IMG/VR virus record: IMGVR_UViG_3300010354_000341
Span: 1 to 32,024 of that record
DNA length: 32,024 nucleotides
Reading direction: 5' to 3' (one strand)
Source of the DNA: a virus
Below the pieces are notes generated by a model. That model searched no databases, was not told where the DNA came from, and worked only from the letters and a program-made list of their open reading frames with translations. The position numbers were made by a program, and so were the translations under genes. Below, in pieces: positions 376 through 20,662 of the stretch (positions are counted from its first letter, which is position 1; the number at the start of each line of letters is the position of its first letter).

Positions 376-3300
376 TCACTGAACCTGCTGAAGGTTGTTT
401 GCAACCACGAAGTCGAGCGAGACGAATTCAATGCTCTTCGTGGGCTGTACGAATATCTTACCACGAATTGTATTGTTTTCTATGTCGTCCTGTGTAGTTG
501 TCGAGGAGTCGATCACGACCTTGAATCTCTCGAGACCGCTGAGCTGCTGAATTCTCTGGAGGCGTGGTGTGACCGCCGCAGAGAAGCGAGCGAGAGTTGC
601 CTCGCGGTTTGGTTCGAAGAGGATCGTCTGTGCGATGTCGCGGACCTGACGACGGATGTCGATGAGGAGGCGGCGGACGTTGACTCTGTCGAGAGCTGAG
701 GCCGAAACCTGAAGTGTCTTCTGTCCCCAGACCACGATGCCACCGCGTGGGTTTGTTCCCGCCTGTGGACCGCCGACGAAGGAAACGATCGGGTTGATCG
801 AGACGTCGTAGAGTTTGTCCATGTCTCCCTGTGAGAGCTTGACGCGTGGCTCGAGAGCGTCCTGTGGGAGAGCGCCGCGAGTGAATCCTGCGGGAGCGAA
901 CCACGGATGTCCTACGCTGTCGTTGAGAGCGAGAGCTCCGAGGACGAGAACAGAGGGTGGAGCGTAGACGTTCTTGCCCGTTGGATCACGGTAGAGGACG
1001 TCTGGGAAGTATGCCGCTGCGAACGATGAGTCGACCGAGCGATTTACGAACGTATCTACGGTTCTCACGACCGAAGGAAGCTGTGTCTCTGCCTTGACAG
1101 ATTCGTTGTTCTCATCGACCTGCTCAACGTCCATGATGTAGAGAGCGTCGAATCTCTCTTCAACGGCGAGCGTTGCTGCATCTGTGACGATGGGCTCACG
1201 AACACCAGGAAGCGCGAGGAGCTGAATGTCTACGTTTGACGTGTTCTTCATGACGTCGAGCGCCTTGAGGTAGGTCCTTACGTTCGGTCCTTCCTCTGGC
1301 TTGCTGGCTCTCTGGTTTGAGACTACCATGTCAGCAGCAACTGCAGCGTTGCTGATCTCTGTCTCTTCTGCATCGAAGATGTTTGTTCCGTCAAATCCGC
1401 CTTGCATGATGAAGGAGAACTTGGCAAACTGCTTGTTAGAGCTGATGTCTTCGACCTTGAAGAATCTTACCTTGCTCTCGTCACCAGGTGACCTTGCGGC
1501 AATTTCTGCAGCATTGACTGACTCACCGTTACGAGAATAGACGGCGTAGACCCACTTGTTAGGATCGGCAAGACCGTTTGATCCAGTAACAACCTGAACG
1601 TTCTCTAGCGAGAAGAAGTTGTTGCAGAACCTGTCAGCATCTATTATTCCGAACGCAGCTGTATCAGGTTGTCCTGGATTGCTTCCTGTAACGAACTTTG
1701 CTTCTGTGACAGCGAACGACGGGAAGAACTTAGCGAAAGACTTGAGAGAGTTGTTCGCAACAACACTGTCATTCTTCTTCTGAAGAGCTGCTGGGTGCTC
1801 GAACTGAACTCCCCAGTAGAAGCGGGAGTTGACCTGCTCTGTTGCTGTCCACTCTGTCGAAGTCGTTATCTTCTTTCTGAAGGGAAGTGGAGGTGTAACA
1901 GAAGACTTCGCAGCATTTGTGAAAGAAAGAACTGTGTTATCCACTGCGCTGAAAGGTGCGAGAGGTGCAGATCCTGATGTGACGAGGTGATCTATTCCTC
2001 TGAAGCCCATTGGTATTGCTGTGGGATCAACAAATCCGTTCTCGACGTCAGGGTGTACTTCAACTCTGACGTAGTTAGATCTGTTCGGGTAGTTACCTTC
2101 GACGACGAGCTTCTGCTCAGATTCTTCACGATCGAAGTCGAAGTAGGCATACACGTCGCCTATGACCTTACCGATGTAGCGGTCTGAAGAAGGATCGAGG
2201 TTAACTCCTGCATAAACTTCTCTTGGAAGCTCCTTCTTGTCCTGGTCTCTGTCGCTCCAGTAGCGAAGTGTAAGAGTGAAGGATCCATACTTGTTGAGAG
2301 GATCGCTTGAAACCGTGATGTTGTCGACTGATACCTTGAACTGTGTTGAGGCTCCTGCGCCGTCGTCAAGGGCGTGAAGTCTAAAGAGGTTCTGGACCTT
2401 TCCACCGAACTTCTGAGAAACAACCCACGGAGAAACAGCGTGTGAGAATCTGTCCTCGAAGGATTCGTAAGCAGGAACTGTTGCGTTGCCCACGTTTCTT
2501 GCAAGTGAAGATGTGACGATGAATGCAGCAGGCTCCTTGCTAGAATTTCCTGTTACATCTGCACCGTAAGATGTCTTAACGAGGCCCGTACCTGTGACAA
2601 CAGCGAGTGTTGGATGAATGTCCCAGTTTGCATAGAGGTAGTGTCCTGCCTCCTGAATCTTTGTTGGATCAGTGTTGAACACGTTAGCGAAGTAGCTGCT
2701 CTTCGAAGTAGGGTCGAAAGAAGCCGTGATCGTATTTGGGTAACGTGAGTCTGTTCCCTTGTGTCCGTTGAGGAAGAGGACGAACTCCTGGGAAGGACTC
2801 GATCCGTCGGAAAGAGAGACAAATCCAACTGAGGAGCCCTTTGCAGCAGAATCAGTTCCAGGTGTGGTTGACGTAGGTGCAACACCTCCACCGCCCACAG
2901 AGGAAGAAAGTCTGAGAATTACTCCCGACGGAGCCATGATAACGCCTCTGATGATCGGAAGCGACGATGTGACACCAGGCGTTACCGATCCAGGTCCTTG
3001 AAGTCCTGCCTCGCTGAAGTATGTGGATCCAGCAGATTCAGACATGAAGCAACCGAGAAAGTAAAGACGACCCTCAGGAGCGCTTACTCCTCCCACAGCG
3101 TATGGGTTTGCAGAAATGGAACCGTCAGAATCAGGAAGACTCTCACCGACCACGAATCCTGCAGAAGTGACCTTACCAGAGGTCGAGTTCCTCTTGCGGC
3201 CGTCGCCCACGCCGAGAACCCTTAGATACGTAACTGACTGAGCGTATCTAAGCCATTCCACGACAGCAAGGGGACCAAACTTCTTTCCGTCTGTCTGACC

Positions 3301-3474
3301 AAACTTGGAATACCAATCGGAAAGATTACCGACTGTGACTGGAACGAACGCAGGTCCTTTCAGAGAGGTTCCCACAATTCCTGCAGGTATACCGACAGGT
3401 TGTTGCGTAGTTGGTCCTGAGATATCGATCTCTCTTGCCGTTACGCCTGCGCTTCCGAATTTCAGTTGTGCCAT
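376..3474 (-). CDS. gp18: Contractile tail sheath protein, gp18-like, second copy (sheath B)
   Basis: This 1032-residue protein is a subunit of the contractile sheath that surrounds the tail tube and drives it through the host envelope. The N-terminus (about residues 10-95) has the gp18-type pattern: an E-I-D-I-S-G-P segment, then GIVGTSLKGPAFVPV, then a region rich in FG and GVGDG turns. The C-terminal 106 residues start at ALDRVNVRRL (residue 927), continue as a helical stretch and end in strands around RGKIFVQP. That is the conserved sheath polymerisation domain. The approximately 800 residues between are long for the family (T4 gp18 is about 660), implying extra surface-exposed domains. 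The ATG at 3474 follows a GGGAGC ribosome site. It is a paralogue of the gene immediately upstream (3521-6556). Whether both are assembled into one virion cannot be told from sequence. Confidence 0.93.
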   Translation of the reverse strand: MAQLKFGSAGVTAREIDISGPTTQQPVGIPAGIVGTSLKGPAFVPVTVGNLSDWYSKFGQTDGKKFGPLAVVEWLRYAQSVTYLRVLGVGDGRKRNSTSGKVTSAGFVVGESLPDSDGSISANPYAVGGVSAPEGRLYFLGCFMSESAGSTYFSEAGLQGPGSVTPGVTSSLPIIRGVIMAPSGVILRLSSSVGGGGVAPTSTTPGTDSAAKGSSVGFVSLSDGSSPSQEFVLFLNGHKGTDSRYPNTITASFDPTSKSSYFANVFNTDPTKIQEAGHYLYANWDIHPTLAVVTGTGLVKTSYGADVTGNSSKEPAAFIVTSSLARNVGNATVPAYESFEDRFSHAVSPWVVSQKFGGKVQNLFRLHALDDGAGASTQFKVSVDNITVSSDPLNKYGSFTLTLRYWSDRDQDKKELPREVYAGVNLDPSSDRYIGKVIGDVYAYFDFDREESEQKLVVEGNYPNRSNYVRVEVHPDVENGFVDPTAIPMGFRGIDHLVTSGSAPLAPFSAVDNTVLSFTNAAKSSVTPPLPFRKKITTSTEWTATEQVNSRFYWGVQFEHPAALQKKNDSVVANNSLKSFAKFFPSFAVTEAKFVTGSNPGQPDTAAFGIIDADRFCNNFFSLENVQVVTGSNGLADPNKWVYAVYSRNGESVNAAEIAARSPGDESKVRFFKVEDISSNKQFAKFSFIMQGGFDGTNIFDAEETEISNAAVAADMVVSNQRASKPEEGPNVRTYLKALDVMKNTSNVDIQLLALPGVREPIVTDAATLAVEERFDALYIMDVEQVDENNESVKAETQLPSVVRTVDTFVNRSVDSSFAAAYFPDVLYRDPTGKNVYAPPSVLVLGALALNDSVGHPWFAPAGFTRGALPQDALEPRVKLSQGDMDKLYDVSINPIVSFVGGPQAGTNPRGGIVVWGQKTLQVSASALDRVNVRRLLIDIRRQVRDIAQTILFEPNREATLARFSAAVTPRLQRIQQLSGLERFKVVIDSSTTTQDDIENNTIRGKIFVQPTKSIEFVSLDFVVANNLQQVQ

Positions 3475-3507
3475 TTATCTGCTCCCAATTTCTTTCTAAC
3501 TATGTGC

Positions 3508-3524
3508 CTGAAGGCGAATTTCAG
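3508..3524 (-). other. Weak hairpin at the sheath A / sheath B junction
   Basis: CTGAA and TTCAG are complementary arms (3508-3512 and 3520-3524) around a 7-base loop. The structure includes the TGA stop of sheath A. A second overlapping dyad (GCCT-GA-AGGC, 3506-3515) is also present. With a 5-bp stem and no T-run, this is not a convincing terminator. It may slow or process mRNA between the two sheath genes, or be chance. Confidence 0.25.
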
Positions 3525-6500
3525 ACGAATTGAACACCGCTATTTGTAACGATGAAGTCGATCGCGATGTATTCCACCACGCGAGTTGGAACGACGACAA
3601 TTCTACCATTGAGGCGATTGAGGTCGTAATCCTCTTGCGTGTTGTTCGATTCGTTCATTATGACCTGGAATGCTTCGACGCCGGCCTGTGATTGTATGAG
3701 TCCCAATTGGAACGAAGCGTCTGCAACGAACTTGTTGCGAACTGCAGGTGTGTTCTGTTCGAACACAAGGCGTTGAGCTATTCCCATGATGATTCTCTTG
3801 ATCTCGAGCATCAATCTACGAACGTTGACTCTGTCGAGGGCTGACTTGTTGATCTTGAGCGTCTTCTGGCCGTAGATCACGTAGCCGAGTCTCGGGAACG
3901 AGGCGATCGGGTTGATGCGTGATTCATAGAGTCTGTCCTTGTCAGCTCCACCGAGTCTCACTGCGACGTTGCTAACAAAGTCGAGAGCAGCTCGGTTGAA
4001 TCCTGCGGGAGCAAACCATGGGTAAGTGACTCTGTCGTTGAATGCCAAAGCTCCGAGAGCTGCAACAGAGGCAGGAACCTTGACCTTTCTGCGGTTCGTT
4101 GCGTCGTCGATGAAGATGTCGGGGTAGTAGACGGCCGTGTAGTCGTTGTCTATTGCCCTCGAGTCGAAGTTAGCCGCGGTCTGGTTTATGTTCGGCTTGT
4201 TTGTCGAATCATCGAATATTCTGTTTCCGTTGTCGTCATACGAAGGAACGTCCATGACGTACATCGAAAGACCGTAATCTCTAACCTTTTGCATTGTCTT
4301 GTCAGAGATGTAAGTCTCACGAATACCAGGTATTGCGAGTATGTTGTTGTTCGACATGAGTGGGTTCGTCATGATGTCGACGGCGGCAAGATATGATGCG
4401 ACGCCATTGTTATTGACATCTTGACCAGATGGATTCGACGAGAAGCCTGAGATGCTGTTGTTTGCAGATGCACCACCGGAAGACTCAAAGGAGACAGACT
4501 TATCATTGAGACGACGTGCATCTCTGTTGAGGAAGTTTGTTCCGTCGAAGCCGCCATGCATGAAGTTTGTGAACTTAGCATAGGCTGAGAATCTGTTGAA
4601 CTGGGCTGCGGTTCCCGTAGAGAGAAGAGTTGCGAACGTCATTCTCTTTCTACCACCTTCAGACCACGTGTAATCAGTCGTGCTCAGTCTTGCGTTTCTA
4701 ACGTAAGCAGCTTCTCTCATGTGGTTGTTAACAGAGCTTGTGAGCTCTGAGAGCTGTTGGTTGTAGAAGGCTACCTTCGAAAGAGAGAACTTGTTGTTGT
4801 GAAGATTGTCAGAATACGATCCTGTCGTGAGAGCATCAAGCTTTTCGATGCCGCAGAACTTGGTGATCGATTCAAGAAGTCCGTCCTTCTCAGAGACGAT
4901 GTTTGAGTTGAGGACGTTTATCGAATCAGCACTCGAAGCCGTCGAAGATCTCTCGAACTTAACGCCCCAGTAATAAGCCACGTTGGCTTGCTCAGATGGC
5001 CCAGGTGCTCCATCAAATCCTGCGCCTGACGTCTCGCCCCTTGTCACCTTGTATCTGTGTGGCACTGGTGGGAGGAAGGAGCTGCTCATCGATGTATATG
5101 ATCCTAAGACTCCGCCGAGACGAGAATCAGTCGACTTGAGAGCATCAGAAACCTTGAGAGAAGGATTCACCTTGAGGAGGCTTGGTCCTCTAAATCCGAA
5201 AGGAAGCGCATTCGAAGGAATTGTTCCTCTCTCTATCTCAGGGCTCATGACTATTCTAACGTACTTCGAATTGTTCGCATACTTTCCTGTTGCAGCGAGT
5301 CGCTTCTCTGTGGGATTAGAAGCATCGAAATTGTAGTAGACCTTTCTGTCTCCTATGAGCTTGGCAACGTAATTCTCAGAATTCGGATCGAGGGAACAGT
5401 TAGTGAATTGTTCAAGAATATTCAAGGACGTATCGGTGTCGTCCCAAGCGCGAATCTGTACGTTGAACGTGCCGTAGGAATAAGCATCGTTGGTCGAAGC
5501 CTTTATGTTGCTTATGGAGACCTTGTAGAGATTATTTGCATATTCTCCGTCGTCAAGAGCTTCGACCTTAAAGAGGTCGTACTCTGTGTTTCCAAAAGGT
5601 TGCGATATGAAGAAGCTTGTTGACGGTGCCTTAAATCTTGTGTCGTAAGATCCAAAGACTTCCCTGAATGTGAGACTTGTCTTTCCGTCGGAGCTGACAT
5701 TGCTCGATCCAGAGAGGACTGCGACAGGGCTTGCAGATGCTACGGAGGCTACGTTGGGGTCAACGGCAAAGTCAGCATGGAGGTAGTGCTGCTCCTGATA
5801 GAACTTGTCAGGATCTGTATTGAGAATCTTCCCGAAGTAATCCTTGTCAGAAGGATCAAAAGAAGCAGTTAGAACCTTGACGCCAGAAGATCCATCGACG
5901 GTTGAGAATGCCGAACCGAGAGAAGAAGATATGACGATCTTGAACTTAGAAGAAGCGTCTACTTGAGTTGCATCAAGCGTGGCAGGTCCCAGACCGACAG
6001 CAGCAGCAGAACTGGTGAGAACCATTATTCTGGCTGTGTTTGGTGTCATAATGAGGCCTCTCACAAGATTGACACGCGAGCCGTTGACTGTGTCATTGTC
6101 ATTGAAGACCGGCATTCCGAATGCGCCGTTTGACGTTGGAACGTGCTCGGCTACCAAGAACTGAACCGTTCCAAGGGAACGCTTGTCGTCTGATAGAGCA
6201 TCGACGCCACCAGGAAGGGTAAAGCCTGCGTTCTTTACTGTTCCGTAAGAAAGTGTCTCAGAGAGATCTGCGTCGGTTGAATTCGCTCCTGCACCGAGGA
6301 CTCTAGTGTATGTTAAGGCTGCGCGATGCTTCAAGAACTCGTTGACGGCATAGGGTCCATAATGCTTTGGATCAAGGTTGCCAAAAGTCTGTGAGAACTC
6401 ATTGAAGTTGGACACGGTAACAGGAACGAAAGCGGGTCCTTTGTTCGAGGTACCGATCACGGCAGCGGGGACGCCCACGGGTCCGGTGATGGTTGGAGCT

Positions 6501-6556
6501 GAAAGGTCAATTTCACGCTCATAAAAGTTGGGCGACTTAAATGTCTGCTCGGCCAT
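3521..6556 (-). CDS. gp18: Contractile tail sheath protein, gp18-like, first copy (sheath A)
   Basis: This 1011-residue sheath subunit is paralogous to the gene that follows it. The N-terminus carries REIDLSAPTITGPVGVPA and then an IGTSNKGPAFVPV segment. The C-terminal 106 residues begin at ALDRVNVRRL (residue 906), exactly the same length and opening as in the other copy. Other shared blocks include the DRVTYPWFAPAGFNRAAL segment (HPWFAPAGFTRGAL in copy B) and GGFDGTNFLN (GGFDGTNIFD in copy B). The central region has diverged strongly. The ATG at 6556 has an excellent AAGGAGA ribosome site. The leader contains a 9-bp inverted repeat (6573-6604). The gene follows the gp15-like sheath-stabilising protein, a natural functional neighbour. 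Assignment to the sheath family is firm; the division of labour between the copies is unknown. Confidence 0.93.
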   Translation of the reverse strand: MAEQTFKSPNFYEREIDLSAPTITGPVGVPAAVIGTSNKGPAFVPVTVSNFNEFSQTFGNLDPKHYGPYAVNEFLKHRAALTYTRVLGAGANSTDADLSETLSYGTVKNAGFTLPGGVDALSDDKRSLGTVQFLVAEHVPTSNGAFGMPVFNDNDTVNGSRVNLVRGLIMTPNTARIMVLTSSAAAVGLGPATLDATQVDASSKFKIVISSSLGSAFSTVDGSSGVKVLTASFDPSDKDYFGKILNTDPDKFYQEQHYLHADFAVDPNVASVASASPVAVLSGSSNVSSDGKTSLTFREVFGSYDTRFKAPSTSFFISQPFGNTEYDLFKVEALDDGEYANNLYKVSISNIKASTNDAYSYGTFNVQIRAWDDTDTSLNILEQFTNCSLDPNSENYVAKLIGDRKVYYNFDASNPTEKRLAATGKYANNSKYVRIVMSPEIERGTIPSNALPFGFRGPSLLKVNPSLKVSDALKSTDSRLGGVLGSYTSMSSSFLPPVPHRYKVTRGETSGAGFDGAPGPSEQANVAYYWGVKFERSSTASSADSINVLNSNIVSEKDGLLESITKFCGIEKLDALTTGSYSDNLHNNKFSLSKVAFYNQQLSELTSSVNNHMREAAYVRNARLSTTDYTWSEGGRKRMTFATLLSTGTAAQFNRFSAYAKFTNFMHGGFDGTNFLNRDARRLNDKSVSFESSGGASANNSISGFSSNPSGQDVNNNGVASYLAAVDIMTNPLMSNNNILAIPGIRETYISDKTMQKVRDYGLSMYVMDVPSYDDNGNRIFDDSTNKPNINQTAANFDSRAIDNDYTAVYYPDIFIDDATNRRKVKVPASVAALGALAFNDRVTYPWFAPAGFNRAALDFVSNVAVRLGGADKDRLYESRINPIASFPRLGYVIYGQKTLKINKSALDRVNVRRLMLEIKRIIMGIAQRLVFEQNTPAVRNKFVADASFQLGLIQSQAGVEAFQVIMNESNNTQEDYDLNRLNGRIVVVPTRVVEYIAIDFIVTNSGVQFV

Positions 6557-7853: not shown

Positions 7854-8522
7854 TCACTCATCATAAAAGGAGGATCCGACGTTCTCTGGATCACCTTTGA
7901 CAGAGACTTCCTTAGGACCCGCGAGAGGTTTGTCAAGGACACCATTGTCGACGAGATCTCTCTTGTCGCCGGTAGCAACTCCGTCCTGATCAAGACTCTC
8001 TCCGCGCTGCTGATGAAATTCTTTTTGAACTGAATCTGAATCTGTGTAACGAATGTCAGTTGGGCCGAGCGTGGGAGCAACAAACAGACCTTCGCGAGCT
8101 TTGACGCCAACGAGTTTGACTCCATCTTTGTGTTCAGGCATTCCGTAGATGTTTCGCATGAAGACACGCTCTGTGATCTCATAGAAGACATCAGAGAACG
8201 AGAAGAAGTCGCCGATCGCCACGTTGATGCCCTTGTCTACGAGATCTCTGTGCTGGACATATACTTCGACCTTGTACTGAGCATCGATTCCGAACTTATC
8301 GATCTTGGTATCGTTTTGGAAGTTATTGTCTACGAGGGCGTCAAGAGCTATTGGATTGTCATACACTTTCTTCAGCGCTTCATTGTAGACTCCGTGTGTC
8401 TTAGTCTTCAGCTCAGAAATAGGATAGTAATAGACTTTCTGTCCCACGACATCTTTTATTAGCTCTTTAGTGATGTCAGAGATGAAGTTAAGTTCTCTCG
8501 GGGTGATGAATAGACGTGCCAT
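7854..8522 (-). CDS. gp14: Neck protein, gp14-like
   Basis: T4 gp14 and gp13 form the neck that closes the DNA-filled head and receives the tail. This 222-residue protein resembles T4 gp14 in layout. A Y-Y-Y-P-x-S element (residues 31-36, equivalent to the CYYVPREY region) leads into a helix. Next come QYKVEVYVQHRDLV and GDFFSFSDVFYEITERVF, matching the T4 EGDLIYFPMDNSLFEINW pattern, and then GVKLVGVKAREGLFV. The C-terminus ends GSSFYDE, similar to the SSPFDNDFMD ending of T4 gp14 as I remember it. The start ATG at 8522 has a GAGG site 4 bases upstream. The gene begins 7 bases after the small membrane-protein gene and ends 8 bases before the gp15-like gene. Confidence 0.65.
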   Translation of the reverse strand: MARLFITPRELNFISDITKELIKDVVGQKVYYYPISELKTKTHGVYNEALKKVYDNPIALDALVDNNFQNDTKIDKFGIDAQYKVEVYVQHRDLVDKGINVAIGDFFSFSDVFYEITERVFMRNIYGMPEHKDGVKLVGVKAREGLFVAPTLGPTDIRYTDSDSVQKEFHQQRGESLDQDGVATGDKRDLVDNGVLDKPLAGPKEVSVKGDPENVGSSFYDE

Positions 8523-11913: not shown

Positions 11914-11943
11914 TTGACATTACGTTGTAAATGGGCACAAAAT
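11914..11943 (+). promoter_or_regulatory. Candidate sigma70-like promoter for the rightward LamG/patatin island
   Basis: A perfect TTGACA (11914-11919) is followed after 18 bases by CAAAAT (11938-11943, four of six matches to TATAAT). It lies 99 bases upstream of the ATG at 12043. The strong -35 is notable in a phage region otherwise lacking one, but the -10 is poor. The intergenic stretch 11871-12042 also holds a small dyad (GTGCA...TGCAC, 11883-11898) and no open frame I can support. Confidence 0.3.
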
Positions 11944-11954
11944 GAGAGTTACTA

Positions 11955-11961
11955 TATTTAG
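11955..11961 (-). promoter_or_regulatory. Candidate late promoter core CTAAATA for the leftward neck/sheath operon
   Basis: The T4 late promoter is a single -10 element, TATAAATA. CTAAATA on the minus strand, in ACTAAATATAG, differs at the first positions and lies 85 bases upstream of the first gene (ATG 11870), in the only long divergent gap. The same heptamer occurs upstream of the gene starting at 27607. The match is short and AT-rich, so it could be chance. Confidence 0.32.
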
Positions 11962-12042
11962 TGATCATGTCTACAACAGAAGTTTGTCAGACAGCGAGAT
12001 TTTACAGAATTTTAACGCTACAAAGAAGAGATACGGAATCTA

Positions 12043-12768
12043 ATGACCATTCAGATCGGAAGAAAACTAAGTTTGCCTGCAGGATATTCTCTTCTGCTCG
12101 ATCCCGCGATACCTGAGAGCTATACGGGCGGATCAGTGTGGACAGACCTCTCTTCACGATCAAACAGCGCAAGCTTAGCAAATACACCGACTTTCTCTCG
12201 CAACTCATTCGGGGCAGGTCAGATCAATTTTAACGGAACAAACCAATACGGAGCGCTGTCTGAGCTGGGTCTCAGTAGAAGTTTCACAATATCTACGTGG
12301 GTTAAGAAGAACGATACTTCTAGCACGGGATGGATGGTGGGTAGCGGCTGGGTAGCAACAACAGAGGGAGCAGGTCTTGGAGTCGGTTTTGGTGTTCAGG
12401 GATCAACGCTTACTCTAACTACGTGGGGGAATCCTGGTTACGTGACGTGGAGCGGAATCGAACCTAACAAGTGGTATCACTTGTGCGCAGTTCAAAACGC
12501 AGGATCAGACTATAACGTAGGACCTTGGACCGCAAAGGTATTTGTGAATGGAAATCAAGTGACGTCTGGCAGTTTCTTCAACTATCACTACTACACGACG
12601 GGCGGGGCGGCTACGTCTTACATCGGCAGAAATTCACACAGTTCGATAGACTCTTACAACTATTTCGGAGGAGCTATGGGTCAGGTATTGATATATAATT
12701 CGATCGCTCTCTCAGACGCTCAAATTGTCGAAGTATTCAGTCAGACTCGTGGAAGGTACGGGGTATAA
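12043..12768 (+). CDS. LamG-like (concanavalin A-fold) lectin domain protein 1
   Basis: This 241-residue protein is essentially one LamG/laminin-G-like beta-sandwich. Typical family landmarks are present in order: a WTDLSSRSNSASLANTPTF opening, INFNGTNQYGAL, SFTISTWVKK, the central W-Y-H-L element (KWYHLCAVQNAG), KVFVNGNQV, YIGRN, and the closing YFGGAMGQVLIYNSIALSD. Such domains bind glycans or proteins and are common as appended adhesive domains, but here the domain stands almost alone. No signal peptide or membrane segment is visible. It is the first gene of a plus-strand island, opposite to all flanking structural genes. The upstream ribosome site is weak (GGAA, 5 bases before the ATG). 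A second LamG-like gene starts 2 bases after its stop. Confidence 0.85.
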   Translation: MTIQIGRKLSLPAGYSLLLDPAIPESYTGGSVWTDLSSRSNSASLANTPTFSRNSFGAGQINFNGTNQYGALSELGLSRSFTISTWVKKNDTSSTGWMVGSGWVATTEGAGLGVGFGVQGSTLTLTTWGNPGYVTWSGIEPNKWYHLCAVQNAGSDYNVGPWTAKVFVNGNQVTSGSFFNYHYYTTGGAATSYIGRNSHSSIDSYNYFGGAMGQVLIYNSIALSDAQIVEVFSQTRGRYGV

Positions 12769-12769
12769 A

Positions 12770-13474
12770 ATGTCTATAGTGATAAAAAATCCAATCATCA
12801 TAAATGGATCAACGAGAGTAGGTCCAGGACAAAATTCATCACCGATTGTGACAACAAACCTTATCATGTATTATGATTTCGGGGATACGAGCAGCTATGC
12901 AGGTAGCGGCACTACAGTAACTGATCTCAGCGGCAACGGTTTGAATGCAACATTGATCAACACCCCCACTTATGCTTCTGCAAATGGTGGCTACATGAAC
13001 TTCTCGGGAACTTCTTATGCAAAAGTTGGGCCTAATGCACTCATAGGTTCAATAGGAACAGGAGATTTCTCAATAGATCTCTGGATATATCTTCCGAATG
13101 CTTCGGGATACGGCCACATCTACAGCATCGATTCACAAGGAGGCTATTTCTTAAAACATTCCAACGGAAATGTTTACGATGGTGCCAGTCAAGCGGGCAG
13201 TGGCGGTGGCGGTGTGATCGGTAGTGGCGCATGGAAACATCTTGTGGTTTCTAGAATATCAGGTACGGCAAGATATTACGTGAACAACGTTCAGGCTGCC
13301 TCGAGAGCGCACGGATTTAATATAAACGCAACAACACTTTACATTAGAAGCGATGGAGGAATGGGAGAGTGGGTTACGGCACACATTGCCCTTCCAAAGC
13401 TCTACAAGAAGGGCCTTACTGTGGCGGAAATTACTCAAAACTTCAACGCGCACAAGAGCAGATTCGGCCTGTAG
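12770..13474 (+). CDS. LamG-like (concanavalin A-fold) lectin domain protein 2
   Basis: This 234-residue LamG-like protein follows the previous one with a one-base gap. The frame is open further upstream, but the ATG at 12770 is preferred because it directly follows the upstream stop and has GG-rich sequence in front. Landmarks are LIMYYDFGDTSSY, VTDLSGNGLNATLINTPTY, GYMNFSGTSYAKV, FSIDLWIYLP, WKHLVVSRISGTARYYVNN and the closing ALPKLYKKGLTVAEITQNF. It shares fold and order with its neighbour, yet the sequence has diverged far, so the pair is either an old duplication or two acquisitions. The classic D-L-S-G-N-G-x-N-A-T motif is better kept here. Possible roles are a decoration lectin or a receptor-binding accessory; direct evidence is lacking. 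Confidence 0.85.
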   Translation: MSIVIKNPIIINGSTRVGPGQNSSPIVTTNLIMYYDFGDTSSYAGSGTTVTDLSGNGLNATLINTPTYASANGGYMNFSGTSYAKVGPNALIGSIGTGDFSIDLWIYLPNASGYGHIYSIDSQGGYFLKHSNGNVYDGASQAGSGGGGVIGSGAWKHLVVSRISGTARYYVNNVQAASRAHGFNINATTLYIRSDGGMGEWVTAHIALPKLYKKGLTVAEITQNFNAHKSRFGL

Positions 13475-13540
13475 TAACAAATTAGAAAATCTATTTGGAA
13501 TTAAGTAATTCTTGATCTATCCGCCATATAATTGTAAAAG
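13475..13540 (+). promoter_or_regulatory. TATAAT hexamer close upstream of the patatin gene
   Basis: In this 66-base gap a perfect TATAAT (13527-13532) lies only 8 bases before the ATG at 13541. No Shine-Dalgarno sequence is visible (the bases before the ATG are TGTAAAAG). If it is a -10 box, transcription would start at or next to the ATG, giving a nearly leaderless mRNA. No convincing -35 is present. A short AT-rich dyad (GAATTAAGTAATTC) precedes it. Confidence 0.35.
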
Positions 13541-14236
13541 ATGTTCACTCGAGTTTCTCTCAGCGGCTGCGGCTGGAAGGTGTTCTGGTACTACGGAGTG
13601 GTACAGAAGCTTGCAGAACATCGCCTCGTCGATCTGGAGAAAGTGGAGTGGATAACGGCGTCGGGCGGCGGCGGTGCTGCAATTCACTTTTTATCGGGAT
13701 ACGATGGATATGAGGGTTTTAAGCGTGCAGTTAGGATCGCCAACCTCGTCAAGGCGGACAGAGCCCACAGGACTGTGACGGTGGCCGTGGATCAAATGGA
13801 GAAAGAAGCTCCAGATGACATTCACACGACGGGAAGACTTGTCATCTGCTATACGAAAGTATCTCTGTGGCCTTTCTACATGAGATATGAAATGATGGAT
13901 GAGTTCCTCACGAAGAAGGACATGTTCGACGCGTTGAGGGCGAGCACTTCGATACCCGTGCTCAACGATGTTCTACGATTTAAAAACAGGCACTTGCACG
14001 TGGACGCAGGTCTCCTGTGCAATCAGCCTGCGAGACACCATAATACTCTGCGAATATCTGCGTGGCCGCTTTCTTTCGGGTCCGACATTAAACCGCAGCC
14101 CAGCGCGTTGTTTGAAAATTACACAATATCTGTTCCGCCAGAAGAGGTGGCTGAAAAGATGTTCAATGAAGGTCTCAAAGACGGAGAAAAATTCTGTCTA
14201 AAATACAAGAAAACCAGAGAAGTCGCTTCAAGATAG
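13541..14236 (+). CDS. Patatin-like (PNPLA family) phospholipase/lipid acyl hydrolase
   Basis: This 231-residue protein carries the family's motif set in correct order and spacing. Residues 8-11 (S-G-C-G), in LSGCGWKVFWYYGVVQKL, form the oxyanion-hole loop; the S/A-G-C-G form recalls animal PNPLA proteins more than the usual bacterial GGGxxG. The nucleophile Ser41 lies in T-A-S-G-G (family G-x-S-x-G, first Gly replaced). ALRASTSIPVL (131-141) matches the A-x-R-A-S-x-S-I-P helix. Asp155 in D-A-G-L-L-C-N-Q-P is the catalytic Asp of the D-G-G/A motif. Patatins use a Ser-Asp dyad to cleave acyl esters of membrane lipids. At 231 residues it is a minimal single domain with no signal peptide or membrane anchor, so it would act in the infected cell or be carried in the virion. 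It ends 9 bases inside the convergent fibre gene. Confidence 0.88.
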   Translation: MFTRVSLSGCGWKVFWYYGVVQKLAEHRLVDLEKVEWITASGGGGAAIHFLSGYDGYEGFKRAVRIANLVKADRAHRTVTVAVDQMEKEAPDDIHTTGRLVICYTKVSLWPFYMRYEMMDEFLTKKDMFDALRASTSIPVLNDVLRFKNRHLHVDAGLLCNQPARHHNTLRISAWPLSFGSDIKPQPSALFENYTISVPPEEVAEKMFNEGLKDGEKFCLKYKKTREVASR

Positions 14237-15232
14237 CGCAACTTGCTTCCAGCTTCCATTGTAGATATAAAATCTGTTGTTGGAAGAATCGTAATACATT
14301 GGCACTCTTCCTGAGATTGTCGACGGAACGGCTGTTGGCGGTCCAGCGGCAGCAGGTATGTAGAAAAATCCGTTTGACATTCCCGTTGAACCCTCAGAAG
14401 TATAGGTGTTTCCGTTCGAATTCACAGAGAACAAAGACGTACCGCTTGAGTTCTGTATAGAAAGATGGTCCCCCGTAGCAGTGGGAGAGCCTGACCTATA
14501 GACGATTCCTGAGTCCGTTGAAGTCGAGGATCCTGTAATATAAAGCCTGGCTGTGTTTGCAACGAATCCAAGACTTCCTCCGGCAAGTATGTTTCCGCTA
14601 GCGTCAATCGTTAAACGAGTTGTGCCATCTCCACCATAGAAGTTGTGTTGCAGAGACGTGTATGTGTTCGTTGCAACTCCAAAGACATTGGGAGCGCCTA
14701 TTTGAATTCCATGAGAAGATCCACCGTAATTGCTTGTAACATGCAAAACTGCTAAGGGATTTTTAGTTCCAATTCCAACTCTTCCACCTAACGTTCCAAG
14801 AGTGCCGGTAACAAAAAAAATGGAAGTTCCTGCAGAATTCTGTACGTCTAAAAGACCTGCTCCGCCCGTAGGAGAAACCACGCCACCTTTTATGGTCATC
14901 GTAGGTATAGACGCTGAAGACGACCCAGAAACAGTCAACAGAGAAGTCGTTGATGTCGTGCCTATCGCTGTTGAGCCTAACAGAAGAGAAGTCGCTTTTA
15001 CCTGCAGCGTATCTTCGTTCGTGTTATCGCCTAAAAAGCTCGAGCCCGACGTGACCAAGCTTCCTGAAACTACCATGGTTCCAGCGAAGACTGCTCTCGC
15101 CGAGCTCGAGCCCGAGACGAAGAACGTGGTATCGGAGCCGGGTATCTGTGGATTTTGAAAGACAATACTTCCAGATATACCGATCACGGAATTGCTTCCG
15201 TATCCAGAAATATTACTTGTTATTATCGGCAC
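14228..15232 (-). CDS. Tail fibre/adhesin protein, short form (334 residues)
   Basis: The N-terminus (about residues 1-60: ITSNISGYGSNSVIGISGSI, then DTTFFVSGSSS and SGSLV) is paralogous to that of the giant fibre encoded just upstream. This suggests both dock at the same site. The middle has Ser/Thr/Gly-rich beta repeats, including two VGIGTKNPLAVLHV-like and LLTVSGSSSAS elements. The C-terminus ends in a PMYYDSSNNRFYIYNGSWKQV motif, typical as I recall of phage fibre tips where a W-rich hairpin closes the trimer. The start is a GTG at 15232 with an AAAGGAGC ribosome site 11 bases upstream. A TATAAT hexamer (minus strand, 15257-15262) lies 25 bases before the GTG. It overlaps the patatin gene tail to tail by 9 bases. 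Confidence 0.85.
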   Translation of the reverse strand: MPIITSNISGYGSNSVIGISGSIVFQNPQIPGSDTTFFVSGSSSARAVFAGTMVVSGSLVTSGSSFLGDNTNEDTLQVKATSLLLGSTAIGTTSTTSLLTVSGSSSASIPTMTIKGGVVSPTGGAGLLDVQNSAGTSIFFVTGTLGTLGGRVGIGTKNPLAVLHVTSNYGGSSHGIQIGAPNVFGVATNTYTSLQHNFYGGDGTTRLTIDASGNILAGGSLGFVANTARLYITGSSTSTDSGIVYRSGSPTATGDHLSIQNSSGTSLFSVNSNGNTYTSEGSTGMSNGFFYIPAAAGPPTAVPSTISGRVPMYYDSSNNRFYIYNGSWKQVALS

Positions 15233-15268
15233 AGATTACCCAGCTCCTTTTACCTGATTATACGTTCT

Positions 15269-18200
15269 TTAGACGCTTGGTTTAGGACCGTTGGAGAAGT
15301 TTCCAATTTCCTCATCAAGCTCTGGTACTGCCTCAAGCATGAACTTGTAGCGCTTACCTGTCTTGTTGAAGCGGATCGTAAGGAAGTCCTCTTCTTCGAT
15401 TAAGGTATAGTCACCGCGTTCGTTCTTGAGATGCAAGTCACCGGTGTAGATGTTTGCCCATCTGTTCGTTGATGAACCTAGCGAGTAGGTTACATCCGCG
15501 GACGGAAGGATGTTCGAATTCACTCGAGATGTGAACGTTACTGTGTCGGAACTTGCGTCGCCGAGCGTGACGTTACCGTTGAATCCGGCTGAACCTGTGA
15601 CACCGAAGACGCCGCCAACCTGAGAGTTGCCTGCGAATGTCGTGGTTACGCTTGCGCCAGCGAAGGTCGTTGTGCCGTTGACTGTGACTGTGTCAGCGGC
15701 TGCATCACCGAGGGTGACGTTTCCGTTGACTGTTGCGTTACCTGCGAATGTCGTGGTTACGCTTGCGCCAGCGAAGGTCGTTGTGCCGTTGACTGTGACT
15801 GTGTCAGCAGATGCGTCACCGAGGGTGACGTTGCCGTTGAATCCAGCCGAGCCGGTGACACCGAGGACGCCACCAACCTGCGAGTTGCCTGCGAAGGTTG
15901 TTGTGACGCTCGATCCTGCGAAGGTCGTCGTACCGTTGACCGTGACAGTGTCAGAGGAAGCATCGCCGAGTGTGGTGTTGCCATTGACCGTTGCATTTCC
16001 AGCGAAGGTCGTTGTAACGGATGCACCAGCGAATGTTGTCGTACCGTTGACTGTGACTGTGTCAGCAGATGCGTCACCGAGGGTGACGTTGCCGTTGAAG
16101 CCAGCAGATCCCGTAACGCCAAGAGCGCCTCCAACCTGTGAGTTACCTGCAAAGGTCGTCGTGACTCCAGAACCCGCGAAGGTTGTGGTGCCGTTGACTG
16201 TCACAGTGTCGGCCGAAGCATCTCCAACCGTGACGTTACCGTTGAGGGTTGCCGCACCTGTAACAGTGAGACCGCCGCCAACTGTGGCATTGTCAGATGT
16301 TGAGAGACGATAGAACGAACCAGTGACGCCTGTGAGGGTGTCGGTCGTCTTGTTGTAGGTGAGACCTGAGTCAGCACCGAACGCGCCACCATCGTTGAAC
16401 TGGATCTGTGTGTCGACACCGGCGACGAGTGCTGCCGCGTTCATCGAGGCTGCAATCGTAACCGATCCGTTAGATCCTGTTGTGATGGTAACGTTGTTAC
16501 CTGCGACGAAGGCAGAGGAACCGTCGGTAAGTTTCGTGAGCGAGCCACTGAGGCCTGCGTTGAACTTGACCGCACCTGTGAAGGTGGTTCCGCTGACTGT
16601 TGCAACGACACCGTCATTGATTGCAAGTGAAACAGATCCCGAAGATCCGCCGCCAGTGAGACCGTTTCCAGCCGTGACGTCGGTTATGTCAGCTTGTGTG
16701 CTGATTGTTACGGAACCATTTGATCCAGTAACGATCGAGATGTTGCTGCCTGCGATGAGGTAAGAAGAACCGTCAGAGAGCTTGGTGAGTGAACCACTGA
16801 GCCCCTGGTTGAAGGTTGCTCTGCCGTTGACCGTGATGATGTCAGCAGCTGCATCACCGAGGGTGACGTTGCCGTTGAAGCCGGCCGATCCAGTGACGCC
16901 AAGGACGCCGCCGACCTGTGAGTTTCCAGCGAAGGTGGTTGTAACACCTGCACCAGCGAAGGTCGTTGTGCCGTTGACTGTGACTGTGTCGGAAGATGCA
17001 TCACCGAGGGTGACGTTGCCGTTGAAGCCGGCCGATCCAGTGACGCCGAGTGTTCCTCCAACCTGTGAGTTACCTGCAAAGGTTGTTGTGACTGAAGAGC
17101 CGGCGAAGGTTGTCGTACCGTTGACCGTGACTGTGTCAGCGGCTGCGTCACCGAGCGTAGCGCTTCCGTTAACAGCAAGGCTGTTGTTGACTGTGGTTGT
17201 TCCTGTCGAAGCGCCGAGAGCTATAGCTGTTGCAGCGCCGCCGAGGTTGAGTGTCGTGACAGTCGAGTTGAGGAGGTTGAACGTCGTTGCCGACGATGTC
17301 ATGTCTCCACCGTTAACTGCTACGTCACCGGCGATTGTCAGGGTGTCAGTTGTCTTGTTGTAGGTGAGACCAGAATCGCCTCCGAAGGCTCCTCCATCGT
17401 TGAACTGGATCTGTGTGTCAGCTCCGCCGACGAGAGATCCTGCGTTCATTGATGCAGAGATTGTGATCGCACCGTTCGAACCAGTCGTGACCGAAACGTT
17501 GTTTCCTGCTATGAAGGCGCTGGTTCCGTCTGTGAGCTTCGTGAGAGAGCCACTGAGACCTGCGTTGAACTTCACAGCTCCGGTAAACGTAGTACCACTG
17601 ACCGTTGCAACAACACCGTCGTTAATTCCGAGAGTAAGATCTCCAGATGTGCCACCGCCCGTGAGACCGGTTCCGGCAGAAACGCTTGTGATGTCTGCTT
17701 GCGTGCTGATTGTTACTGATCCGTTGGATCCTGTAACGATCGAGATGTTGTTACCAGCAACGAGATAGCTGCTTCCATCAGAGAGCTTGGTGAGTGAACC
17801 ACTGAGCCCCTGGTTGAAGGTTGCAGAACCGTTTACTGTGACCGTGTCTGAAGAAGCGTCTCCGAGGATTGTGCTTCCGCTGACTGTGAGGCTGTTCTTG
17901 ACTGTTGTCGTACCAGAGGTAGCGCCAAGAGTCATTGCTGTTGCAGCTCCACCAACATTGAGCGTTGTAACAGTCGAGTTGAGGAGGTTGAACGTCGTTG
18001 CCGACGATGTCATGTCTCCACCGTTAACTGCTACGTCGCCAGCGAACGTTGTTGTAACACCTGCGCCTGCAAAGGTCGTCGTACCGTTGACAGTGACTGT
18101 GTCAGCGGATGCGTCACCGAGAGTGACGTTGCCGTTGAATCCAGCTGAACCAGTGACGCCGAGGACGCCTCCAACTTGGGAGTTGCCTGCGAAGGTGGTT

Positions 18201-20662
18201 GTAACACCAGAACCGGCAAATGTTGTCGTTCCGTTGACCGTGACAGTATCGGAAGACGCATCGCCAAGAGTTGTGTTACCGTTGACCGTTGCATTTCCAG
18301 CGAAGGTTGTGGTGACTGCTGCTCCAGCGAAGGTCGTCGTGCCGTTGACTGTCACTGTATCAGCAGATGCATCACCGACTGTAACGTTTCCGTTCAATGT
18401 AGAAGCACCTGTAACGGTAAGGCCGCCGCCAACAGTTGAGTTACCTGAAGTGCTGAGGCTAAAGAACGATCCTGTCACACCCGTGAGGGTGTCGGTCGTC
18501 TTGTTGTAGGTGAGACCTGAATCTCCGCCGAACGAACCAGCATCGTTGAACTGTAGCTGTGTGTCTGAACCGCCAACGAGAGAACCGGCGTTCATTGAGG
18601 CTGCAATCGTAACTGCGCCCGAAGATCCAGTTGTGATCGTAACGTTTGCTCCTGCAATGAATGCGCTTGTTCCGTCAGTCAACTTGGTGTGAGAGCCGCT
18701 GAGGCCAGTGTTCGAAACGAGGAACACAGAAGATCCCGCACTGTTCTGAACATCAACAAGAGCACCTGTCTGTCCTGCAACACCCGCCTTGACGAGGAGG
18801 ACCTTGTCAGAAGATGTTGAAGATCCAGAGACAAGAAGCTCTGTCGTGTTGGTTGGTGTGGTTCCAACTGCAACTCTTGATCCCGAAACAACGAGTGCAT
18901 TGGCTCCATAGGCGCCAGCGATGACCCTGTTGTCAGAAGTAACTTCAAGAATTGGAAGTCCTGAAGCGTTGTTGACCGAGAGGAGAGATCCCGACATGCT
19001 GTCTGAGACAGAGAAGAGAGATCCTGATGAACCTACAACCTCAAGCTTTCCTGAAGGCTGCGTGGTTCCGATTCCGAGGCTTCCGCTGGCATTGTGCCAG
19101 AAGAGTCCGTTGGTACCGCTTAGTACGCCGCCCGTTCCAGCAAGAACGACTTGTCCTGCCGAGACGTTGCTGCTTGTTAGAGAACCGCTGATGTTTGCAA
19201 CCTTGAGAAGGTTTGAGGCCTTCGTGAAGGTGAAGTTTGCATTTCCACCAAAGACGCTGCCGTCATTGAACTGAACCTGCGTGTCAGCTCCGCCAGCGTT
19301 TGCTGTAACAGTGATAGCACCGTTAGAGCCTGTGGTGACCGACATGTTGGTTCCAGCGATGATGTAGCTGGTTCCATCAGCGAGTTTCGTGTGAGAGCCG
19401 CTGATACCTGCATTTACCTTGACAGCACCCGTGAAGGTTGCGCCGCTGATTGTTGCAACAACTCCGTCGTTGATCGCAAGAGTAAGGCTGCCTGAGTTTC
19501 CGCCACCTGTGAGACCAGTTCCTGCAGTAATGTCAGTTATGTCTGCCTGAGTACTGATTGTGACAGCTCCGTTAGAGCCAGTTGCGATGGAGATGTTGTT
19601 ACCTGCGATGAGGTAGCTTGTTCCGTCAGCGAGTTTCGTGAGAGAGCCGCTGAGACCCTGGTTGAAGGTTGCGCGACCATTGACGGTAACCGTGTCAGCG
19701 GCTGCGTCACCGAGGGTGACGTTTCCGTTGAATGCAGCGGAACCTGTGACACCGAGAACTCCGCCAACCTGTGCATTACCTGCAAAAGTTGTTGTAACTC
19801 CCGAGCCAACAAACGTTGTCGTACCGTTGACAGTGACTGTGTCTGACGAAGCGTCGCCGAGGGTGGTGTTACCGTTAACTGCTGCATTACCAGCAAATGT
19901 TGTCGTAACTGATGTACCCGCGAACGTCGTTGTGCCGTTGACTGTGACTGTGTCAGCAGATGCGTCGCCGACTGTGACGTTACCGTTGAGTGTAGAAGCT
20001 CCGGTAACCGTGAGTCCTCCACCAATTGTAGCATTGTCGGACGTGGAAACACGATAGAAAGATCCTGTCACGCCTGTGAGTGTGTCAGTTGTCTTGTTGT
20101 ATGTGAGTCCAGCGTCACCGCCGAATGCGCTTCCACCGTCATTGAACTGGATCTGTGTGTCAGCTCCAGCAACGAGTGTGGATGCGTTCATCGTGCCGGC
20201 GATGGTGATCGAACCATTCGATCCTGTCGTGACGACGATGTTAGATCCTGCAACGAGGTAGCTCGAACCGTCCGTGAGCTTCGTAAGAGAACCGCTGAGA
20301 CCGCCTGTCGCTGTGAGAGCTCCAACTGTCTGCAGTGTTCCTTGGACTACAGTGTTGCCTGTCGAAGAGGCAACAGTGAACTTGCTGTTACCTGAAGAGT
20401 CGCTAACAGTGACTCCTGTCGAACCTGCGTTGAACTGTGTGACTCCGCTTCCGTTCTTGAGTGAAACGCTTCCGGAACCCACAATTGAGCCGCCGAAGAG
20501 TGTGTAGTCTCTGGTGGACGATCCAGAGACGAAGAACGTAACGTCACTCGGGATTGTCGGGAACAGGTTGTCCGGTCTGTTCGCGATCACTACTGATCCA
20601 GTAATTCCTACGGCGGAATTAGACTGAATACTGCCTGATATGCTACTTAATACTAACGCCAT
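15269..20662 (-). CDS. Giant repeat-built tail fibre/adhesin (1797 residues)
   Basis: The N-terminal docking region (residues about 1-70, with DVTFFVSGSS) resembles the neighbouring 334-residue fibre. The body is nearly all Ser/Thr/Gly/Val repeats. I count 16 copies of G-D-A-x-x-D-T/I-(V/I)-T-V-like units, 12 of them followed by TTFAG(x)xVTTTFAG, and eight SGSLTKL(S/T/A)DG(S/T)SYL-type modules that also occur in two other fibres here. Such regular beta repeats are expected to fold as a long trimeric or beta-helical shaft. About the last 75 residues (TYSLGSSTNRWANIYTGD, ERGDYTLIEEEDFL, NKTGKRYKF, PELDEEIG) are a distinct C-terminal module, shared with the 279-residue fibre upstream. The ATG at 20662 has a CTAGGAGA ribosome site within a TCCTAGGA palindrome. 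No S74 peptidase chaperone is recognised at the end. Confidence 0.9.
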   Translation of the reverse strand: MALVLSSISGSIQSNSAVGITGSVVIANRPDNLFPTIPSDVTFFVSGSSTRDYTLFGGSIVGSGSVSLKNGSGVTQFNAGSTGVTVSDSSGNSKFTVASSTGNTVVQGTLQTVGALTATGGLSGSLTKLTDGSSYLVAGSNIVVTTGSNGSITIAGTMNASTLVAGADTQIQFNDGGSAFGGDAGLTYNKTTDTLTGVTGSFYRVSTSDNATIGGGLTVTGASTLNGNVTVGDASADTVTVNGTTTFAGTSVTTTFAGNAAVNGNTTLGDASSDTVTVNGTTTFVGSGVTTTFAGNAQVGGVLGVTGSAAFNGNVTLGDAAADTVTVNGRATFNQGLSGSLTKLADGTSYLIAGNNISIATGSNGAVTISTQADITDITAGTGLTGGGNSGSLTLAINDGVVATISGATFTGAVKVNAGISGSHTKLADGTSYIIAGTNMSVTTGSNGAITVTANAGGADTQVQFNDGSVFGGNANFTFTKASNLLKVANISGSLTSSNVSAGQVVLAGTGGVLSGTNGLFWHNASGSLGIGTTQPSGKLEVVGSSGSLFSVSDSMSGSLLSVNNASGLPILEVTSDNRVIAGAYGANALVVSGSRVAVGTTPTNTTELLVSGSSTSSDKVLLVKAGVAGQTGALVDVQNSAGSSVFLVSNTGLSGSHTKLTDGTSAFIAGANVTITTGSSGAVTIAASMNAGSLVGGSDTQLQFNDAGSFGGDSGLTYNKTTDTLTGVTGSFFSLSTSGNSTVGGGLTVTGASTLNGNVTVGDASADTVTVNGTTTFAGAAVTTTFAGNATVNGNTTLGDASSDTVTVNGTTTFAGSGVTTTFAGNSQVGGVLGVTGSAGFNGNVTLGDASADTVTVNGTTTFAGAGVTTTFAGDVAVNGGDMTSSATTFNLLNSTVTTLNVGGAATAMTLGATSGTTTVKNSLTVSGSTILGDASSDTVTVNGSATFNQGLSGSLTKLSDGSSYLVAGNNISIVTGSNGSVTISTQADITSVSAGTGLTGGGTSGDLTLGINDGVVATVSGTTFTGAVKFNAGLSGSLTKLTDGTSAFIAGNNVSVTTGSNGAITISASMNAGSLVGGADTQIQFNDGGAFGGDSGLTYNKTTDTLTIAGDVAVNGGDMTSSATTFNLLNSTVTTLNLGGAATAIALGASTGTTTVNNSLAVNGSATLGDAAADTVTVNGTTTFAGSSVTTTFAGNSQVGGTLGVTGSAGFNGNVTLGDASSDTVTVNGTTTFAGAGVTTTFAGNSQVGGVLGVTGSAGFNGNVTLGDAAADIITVNGRATFNQGLSGSLTKLSDGSSYLIAGSNISIVTGSNGSVTISTQADITDVTAGNGLTGGGSSGSVSLAINDGVVATVSGTTFTGAVKFNAGLSGSLTKLTDGSSAFVAGNNVTITTGSNGSVTIAASMNAAALVAGVDTQIQFNDGGAFGADSGLTYNKTTDTLTGVTGSFYRLSTSDNATVGGGLTVTGAATLNGNVTVGDASADTVTVNGTTTFAGSGVTTTFAGNSQVGGALGVTGSAGFNGNVTLGDASADTVTVNGTTTFAGASVTTTFAGNATVNGNTTLGDASSDTVTVNGTTTFAGSSVTTTFAGNSQVGGVLGVTGSAGFNGNVTLGDASADTVTVNGTTTFAGASVTTTFAGNATVNGNVTLGDAAADTVTVNGTTTFAGASVTTTFAGNSQVGGVFGVTGSAGFNGNVTLGDASSDTVTFTSRVNSNILPSADVTYSLGSSTNRWANIYTGDLHLKNERGDYTLIEEEDFLTIRFNKTGKRYKFMLEAVPELDEEIGNFSNGPKPSV
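17259..17326. repeat. Exact 68-bp direct repeat, copy 1
   Basis: This stretch is identical over 68 bases to 17970-18037, 711 bases away, inside the giant fibre gene (coding roughly VAVNGGDMTSSATTFNLLNS and the next residues). The offset is a multiple of three, so recombination between the copies would delete or duplicate exactly 237 codons in frame. Confidence 0.9.
17970..18037. repeat. Exact 68-bp direct repeat, copy 2
   Basis: This is the second copy of the 68-base identity described at 17259-17326. Flanking bases diverge at once (A versus G just after the 3' end), so the identity is bounded. Confidence 0.9.

Follow-up and report, generated by a model that had tools for sequence, protein, structure and literature searches.

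Given that the genes of this phage region are read from one strand, why does a predicted lipid hydrolase stand among them on the other, and what would it do there? The window, by which we mean the whole 32,024-nucleotide stretch of viral DNA that was analysed, is a tail and neck region, and its minus strand encodes a pair of large sheath proteins together with a gp15-like protein, a head-tail adaptor and fibres. A pocket on the plus strand carries LamG lectin genes, with the patatin gene after them. The preliminary description had placed this gene in a strand-reversed pocket of a T4-type virion gene region. The reversal is real and conserved, with the minus-strand neck, tail and fibre set as its neighbours, and the sheath, neck and fibre genes around the patatin support the T4-type setting. 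The features to which we refer are as follows (L numbers denote related loci).

376-6556, minus strand: two tandem large tail-sheath genes (376-3474 and 3521-6556) of a T4-type tail
7854-8522, minus strand: conserved neck-region protein, used as bait for related phages
11942-12043, plus strand: 33-aa open reading frame that resembles a LamG C-terminal tail in sequence and precedes the first LamG gene
12043-12768, plus strand: LamG/ConA-like lectin gene 1, a member by array profile, with same-place counterparts in L002 and L003
12770-13474, plus strand: LamG lectin gene 2 (Pfam Laminin_G_3, 1.1e-13; PHROG virion structural protein)
13527-13534, plus strand: TATAATTG box, putative promoter, 6 nt before the patatin ATG
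13541-14236, plus strand: predicted patatin-like (ATGL/PNPLA1-5-like) acyl hydrolase, an intact 231-aa reading frame, from Pfam match and alignments
13562-13582, plus strand: oxyanion loop S8-G9-C10-G11-W12-K13-V14, from alignment and invariance
13661-13663, plus strand: codon of Ser41, predicted nucleophile in T-A-S-x-G, from alignment and invariance
14003-14005, plus strand: codon of Asp155, predicted dyad partner in D-A-G, from alignment and invariance
13541-14500, no strand: recently exchanged block, 93-98% identical to IMGVR_UViG_3300042987_003836, with flanks at 65-82%
14228-15232, minus strand: facing fibre-like gene, whose stop region overlaps the patatin end by 9 bp

The identity of the protein was examined within a family made up of the window protein and five other distinct IMG/VR relatives (59–98% identity). 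The window protein matches Pfam PF01734 Patatin with an E value of 1.7e-7 and 32 bits, against a curated cut-off of 27.7, and the best-scoring relative reaches 4.3e-9 and 37.3 bits over almost the full profile. All six distinct members score above the cut-off, and a separately run six-frame family search led to the same assignment. When RssA and YjjU from the E. coli K-12 record were aligned with the family by MAFFT, Ser41 and Asp155 lined up with the catalytic Ser and Asp of both enzymes. The A-x-x-S-x-S-I-P helix aligns with them as well, in the shared form A-S-x-(S/A)-I-P. Residues S8-G9-C10-G11, S41, the helix residues S135, S137, I138 and P139, and D155 are invariant across the six proteins. 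Membership of the patatin family, with a conserved Ser41–Asp155 dyad, is thus established at the level of sequence. The protein had been described beforehand as a patatin/PNPLA enzyme with Ser41 and Asp155 as its catalytic pair and a Thr before the nucleophile motif; the profile search then proposed gave the match reported above, the pair coincides with the RssA and YjjU dyad, and the Thr proved to be common to all members.

Three positions depart from the consensus throughout the family. The strict oxyanion consensus (G/A)XGXXG is not matched by S-G-C-G-W-K-V because every member keeps the first two Gly but has Val14 for the last, the residue after the oxyanion-loop Arg that is Gly in RssA and YjjU. 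The nucleophile elbow is T-A-S-x-G, which keeps the second Gly of G-x-S-x-G and has Thr39 for the first, and the Asp motif is D-A-G in place of D-G-G, with Ala156 for Gly. Candida antarctica lipase B has a Thr at the same elbow position. Variation of the loop is known from PNPLA4, which carries Ser for an oxyanion Gly (PMC2435558). Val14, Thr39 and D-A-G could mean reduced or altered catalysis, and in view of the two precedents lipid acyl hydrolase activity still seems likely.

We then asked which patatins the phage protein resembles. A profile of the six proteins scored the PNPLA2/ATGL domain at 37.1 bits. RssA and YjjU, the two bacterial patatins in this comparison of scores, reached 0.7 and −0.1 bits. 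The PNPLA2/ATGL sequence used in all comparisons is a provisional one that does not come from a database record. The main match covers 186 of 226 positions, 500 shuffles gave at most 4.0, and Smith–Waterman Z values were about 20 against the provisional PNPLA2 and no higher than 4.4 against RssA and YjjU. Thus, although the dyad and helix align with the two bacterial enzymes, their profile scores are at noise level. The S-G-C-G loop had earlier been said to recall animal PNPLA proteins; the likeness in fact spans almost the whole protein, with the proviso that the PNPLA2 sequence is provisional.

The phage proteins have in common with ATGL/PNPLA1-5 the GCG oxyanion loop, a G-R-L-x-I-x-x-T-x-V-S strand, I-P and D-x-G...N-x-P and, past the catalytic core, S-D-I-x-P as well as, in the multiple alignment, G-x-(K/R)-D-G. 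Identity to the provisional PNPLA2 is 31% in the alignment. Unlike the ATGL/PNPLA1-5 enzymes, the phage protein is a single domain of 231 aa that lacks the C-terminal lipid-droplet part, has Val14, Thr39 and Ala156 for Gly, and comes from a tailed phage. Because the PNPLA2 sequence is provisional, assignment to the ATGL/PNPLA1-5 type counts as a strong lead and falls short of a test of membership. With the same reservation, the phage patatin looks more like the animal and giant-virus ATGL/adiponutrin lipases than like the bacterial patatins compared. It would add a compact, single-domain form to a group of enzymes with medical importance, in which a search by sequence found no solved structure.

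AlphaFold models of the phage protein were of low confidence (mean pLDDT 53, with pTM 0.61, and 50), the second being no better than the first. Despite this weakness, the best fold matches were patatins in two libraries. All named matches among the top 15 from a viral fold library, queried with the pLDDT 53 model, were giant-virus PNPLA proteins, patatins or related lipases. The top matches were PNPLA proteins of Yasminevirus, NIOZ-UU159 and Terrestrivirus (E 7.7e-8 to 1.1e-4; one is named PNPLA3), which differ from the phage protein in their eukaryotic hosts and share 16–22% identity with it, the query model being of low confidence. In the PDB, the patatins CapV, CapE and ExoU were among the best fold matches, and a search by sequence returned chance matches only.

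No PHROG or NCBIfam model matches the family, tblastn against 50,697 phages and 72,556 plasmids detected no relative of it, and the provisional PNPLA2 likewise detected none of its own in the phage and plasmid collections. Searches widened with an alignment that included PNPLA2, or started from other members, added no further viral relatives. Two scans of cellular contigs, with the patatin and with the neck protein, found neither within their reach, which extends to close relatives, and so provide no link to a host. A GCGFxGxYxxG pattern searched for in the DNA of IMG/VR picked out 55 stretches, none of them patatins. The base composition of the gene is not foreign, its GC of 0.49 being close to that of its neighbours.

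We were interested in the company that the gene keeps and collected 80 loci with the neck protein as bait. In all six complete LamG arrays, those of the window and of the L002, L003, L004, L005 and L006 contigs, the array ends with the patatin gene; the L007 protein is the same as that of L006, and the remaining LamG loci are truncated where their contigs end. Loci that lack LamG genes had no patatin within the stretch examined, and none was found in four large related records (104–298 kb) searched whole. Judged by the sheath, Microcystis phage Mel-JY01 and Flavobacterium phage immuto are the closest isolates, each at 37%, and the former has no patatin.

Arrays range from one or two LamG genes (L002 and the window) to about ten (L006). 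In the window, gene 1 has no Pfam match of its own, and gene 2, listed as a reading frame from 12725, has an internal ATG at 12770. The 33-aa reading frame at their head is likely, from its sequence, to be the scar of a deleted array member. L006 (834-7956) and L004 (2582-7633) contain up to about ten tandem LamG reading frames of about 230 aa with many stop/start overlaps, which we read as a recombining adhesin array. In L029 (1860-4890), on the contig of L005, the rest of the array is separated from the patatin by three LamG reading frames that point the other way, as if inverted. The proteins of the facing fibre genes have an N-terminal part common to most lineages and tips that differ.

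The history of the gene differs from that of its surroundings. Between the window and L002, dS is 0.24 for the patatin gene, 1.1 for a LamG gene and 3.2 for the neck gene, which is near synonymous saturation (proportion 0.74). Sliding identity shows a high-identity block of about 1 kb that runs from the patatin ATG to around 14500, inside the fibre tip, and a second at 15101-15500. Patatin and neck identities disagree between lineages, for example 60% as against 85% between the window and L004. At a dN/dS of 0.03 between the window and L002, the patatin is not a chance reading frame; for this one pair, the low dS and the high-identity block show that it was recently exchanged together with the adjoining fibre tip and kept under purifying selection. 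These results suggest that its benefit is tied to the adhesin and host-binding module.

The gene may also be expressed on its own terms. In five of the six loci a TATAAT or TATAGT box occurs 8–13 nt ahead of the patatin ATG, in similar places in L002–L005, and a Shine-Dalgarno sequence is absent in three of the five boxed loci. By contrast, AGGAG-type sites precede several of the structural genes on the minus strand, and these genes lack the box. The recurrence of the box suggests a separate promoter, and the patatin gene probably has its own, with a very short leader.

The reading that we favour, and consider on balance probable, is that the gene encodes a soluble, patatin-fold hydrolase of the ATGL type, an accessory of the adhesin module that attacks host lipids during lysis or entry. 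The enzyme would be made in the infected cell, without a signal peptide, and would deacylate host membrane lipids to aid membrane breakdown at lysis. Alternatively, riding on the LamG/fibre apparatus, it might act at the host surface on entry. A precedent exists in phage WO, where a patatin beside the tail module has been proposed to have a lytic or entry role (PMC3173496, PMC9203015). The likeness is one of gene setting, with the patatin adjoining a tail module; its companions in WO are a holin-like gene and an ankyrin protein, and in the window LamG lectins and a fibre tip. Against the favoured reading, no holin-like gene adjoins the patatin, whose neighbours are a LamG gene and the overlapping fibre gene; the patatin-bearing records are fragments, in which the lysis genes of these phages are not seen. 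In a more specific version, which we put forward tentatively and rate below even chances, an ATGL/PNPLA1-5-type lipase acquired from a eukaryote or giant virus became fixed as the constant partner of the LamG array, with host lipids as its target when the phage enters or leaves the cell. If true, a eukaryote-type fat lipase was turned into a phage infection tool, and an ATGL-type enzyme in tailed phages would mean lipase traffic across domains of life.

That the patatin is packaged in the virion, as an entry lipase that is carried on the LamG/fibre apparatus and, once the phage has adsorbed, attacks the host surface, is unlikely in our judgement. Its strict pairing with the array, its place between adhesin genes, its co-exchange with the fibre tip and the classing of LamG relatives as virion structural proteins in PHROGs all fit such a role, but it is not fused to a structural domain and its gene stands alone behind its own putative promoter.

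ATGL-type lipases act on neutral lipid, which would suit an auxiliary metabolic gene that remodels host membrane or storage lipids during infection, apart from lysis and entry. Phage patatins of large or freshwater phages have been classed in that way (PMC9723777, PMC9469726), so that a phage patatin is not new in itself; the records of marine megaphage Mar_Mega_1 (PMC9723777) and Acinetobacter phage MD-2021a are likewise large phage records with a patatin. We regard this explanation as distinctly unlikely, as it leaves the conserved adhesin-side place and the LamG pairing unexplained. Known phage patatins are few, and those matched in the phage collection are like common bacterial patatins of the RssA/YjjU kind, unlike the window family, which has no match there. 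What is new is that the enzyme is ATGL-like, that it is paired with a lectin array and that it is exchanged along with fibre tips.

A mere passenger, with a role not tied to adhesins, could have been carried along in a recombination hotspot that swaps fibre tips and LamG genes; six pairings in six complete arrays and the dN/dS of 0.03 make this very improbable. Least probable of all is an inactive or regulatory fold, serving for example in superinfection exclusion or as a decoy that counters CapV and similar defence effectors of patatin type. The three invariant departures from the active-site glycines might suggest it, but the invariant Ser, Asp and helix motif and the strong purifying selection contradict it, as does PADLOC, which matched no patatin effector model (CapV-type CBASS) and gave only weak, unrelated matches.

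The accessory lipid hydrolase that we favour, tightly paired with a lectin array and accompanied by swapped fibre tips, offers a testable link from receptor binding to lipid attack.

Several further observations concern these loci. A 152-aa cysteine-rich reading frame with a CNGCTKCC motif and no Pfam match directly follows the patatin in L004 (8725-9183) and in this locus only. Small reading frames lie past the fibre tips in L004 (9184-9519), L006 (8678-8959) and L003 (8706-9020); two are related at 54%, one is a DUF7936 protein, and they are possibly tip-specific chaperones. In the window, the tandem sheath genes encode proteins of 1032 and 1011 aa, both far longer than the main PHROG sheath model. 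The fibre gene at 15269-20662 (1797 aa) has internal repeats over 15537-20300 that match many places in related contigs, and long open frames on its opposite strand.
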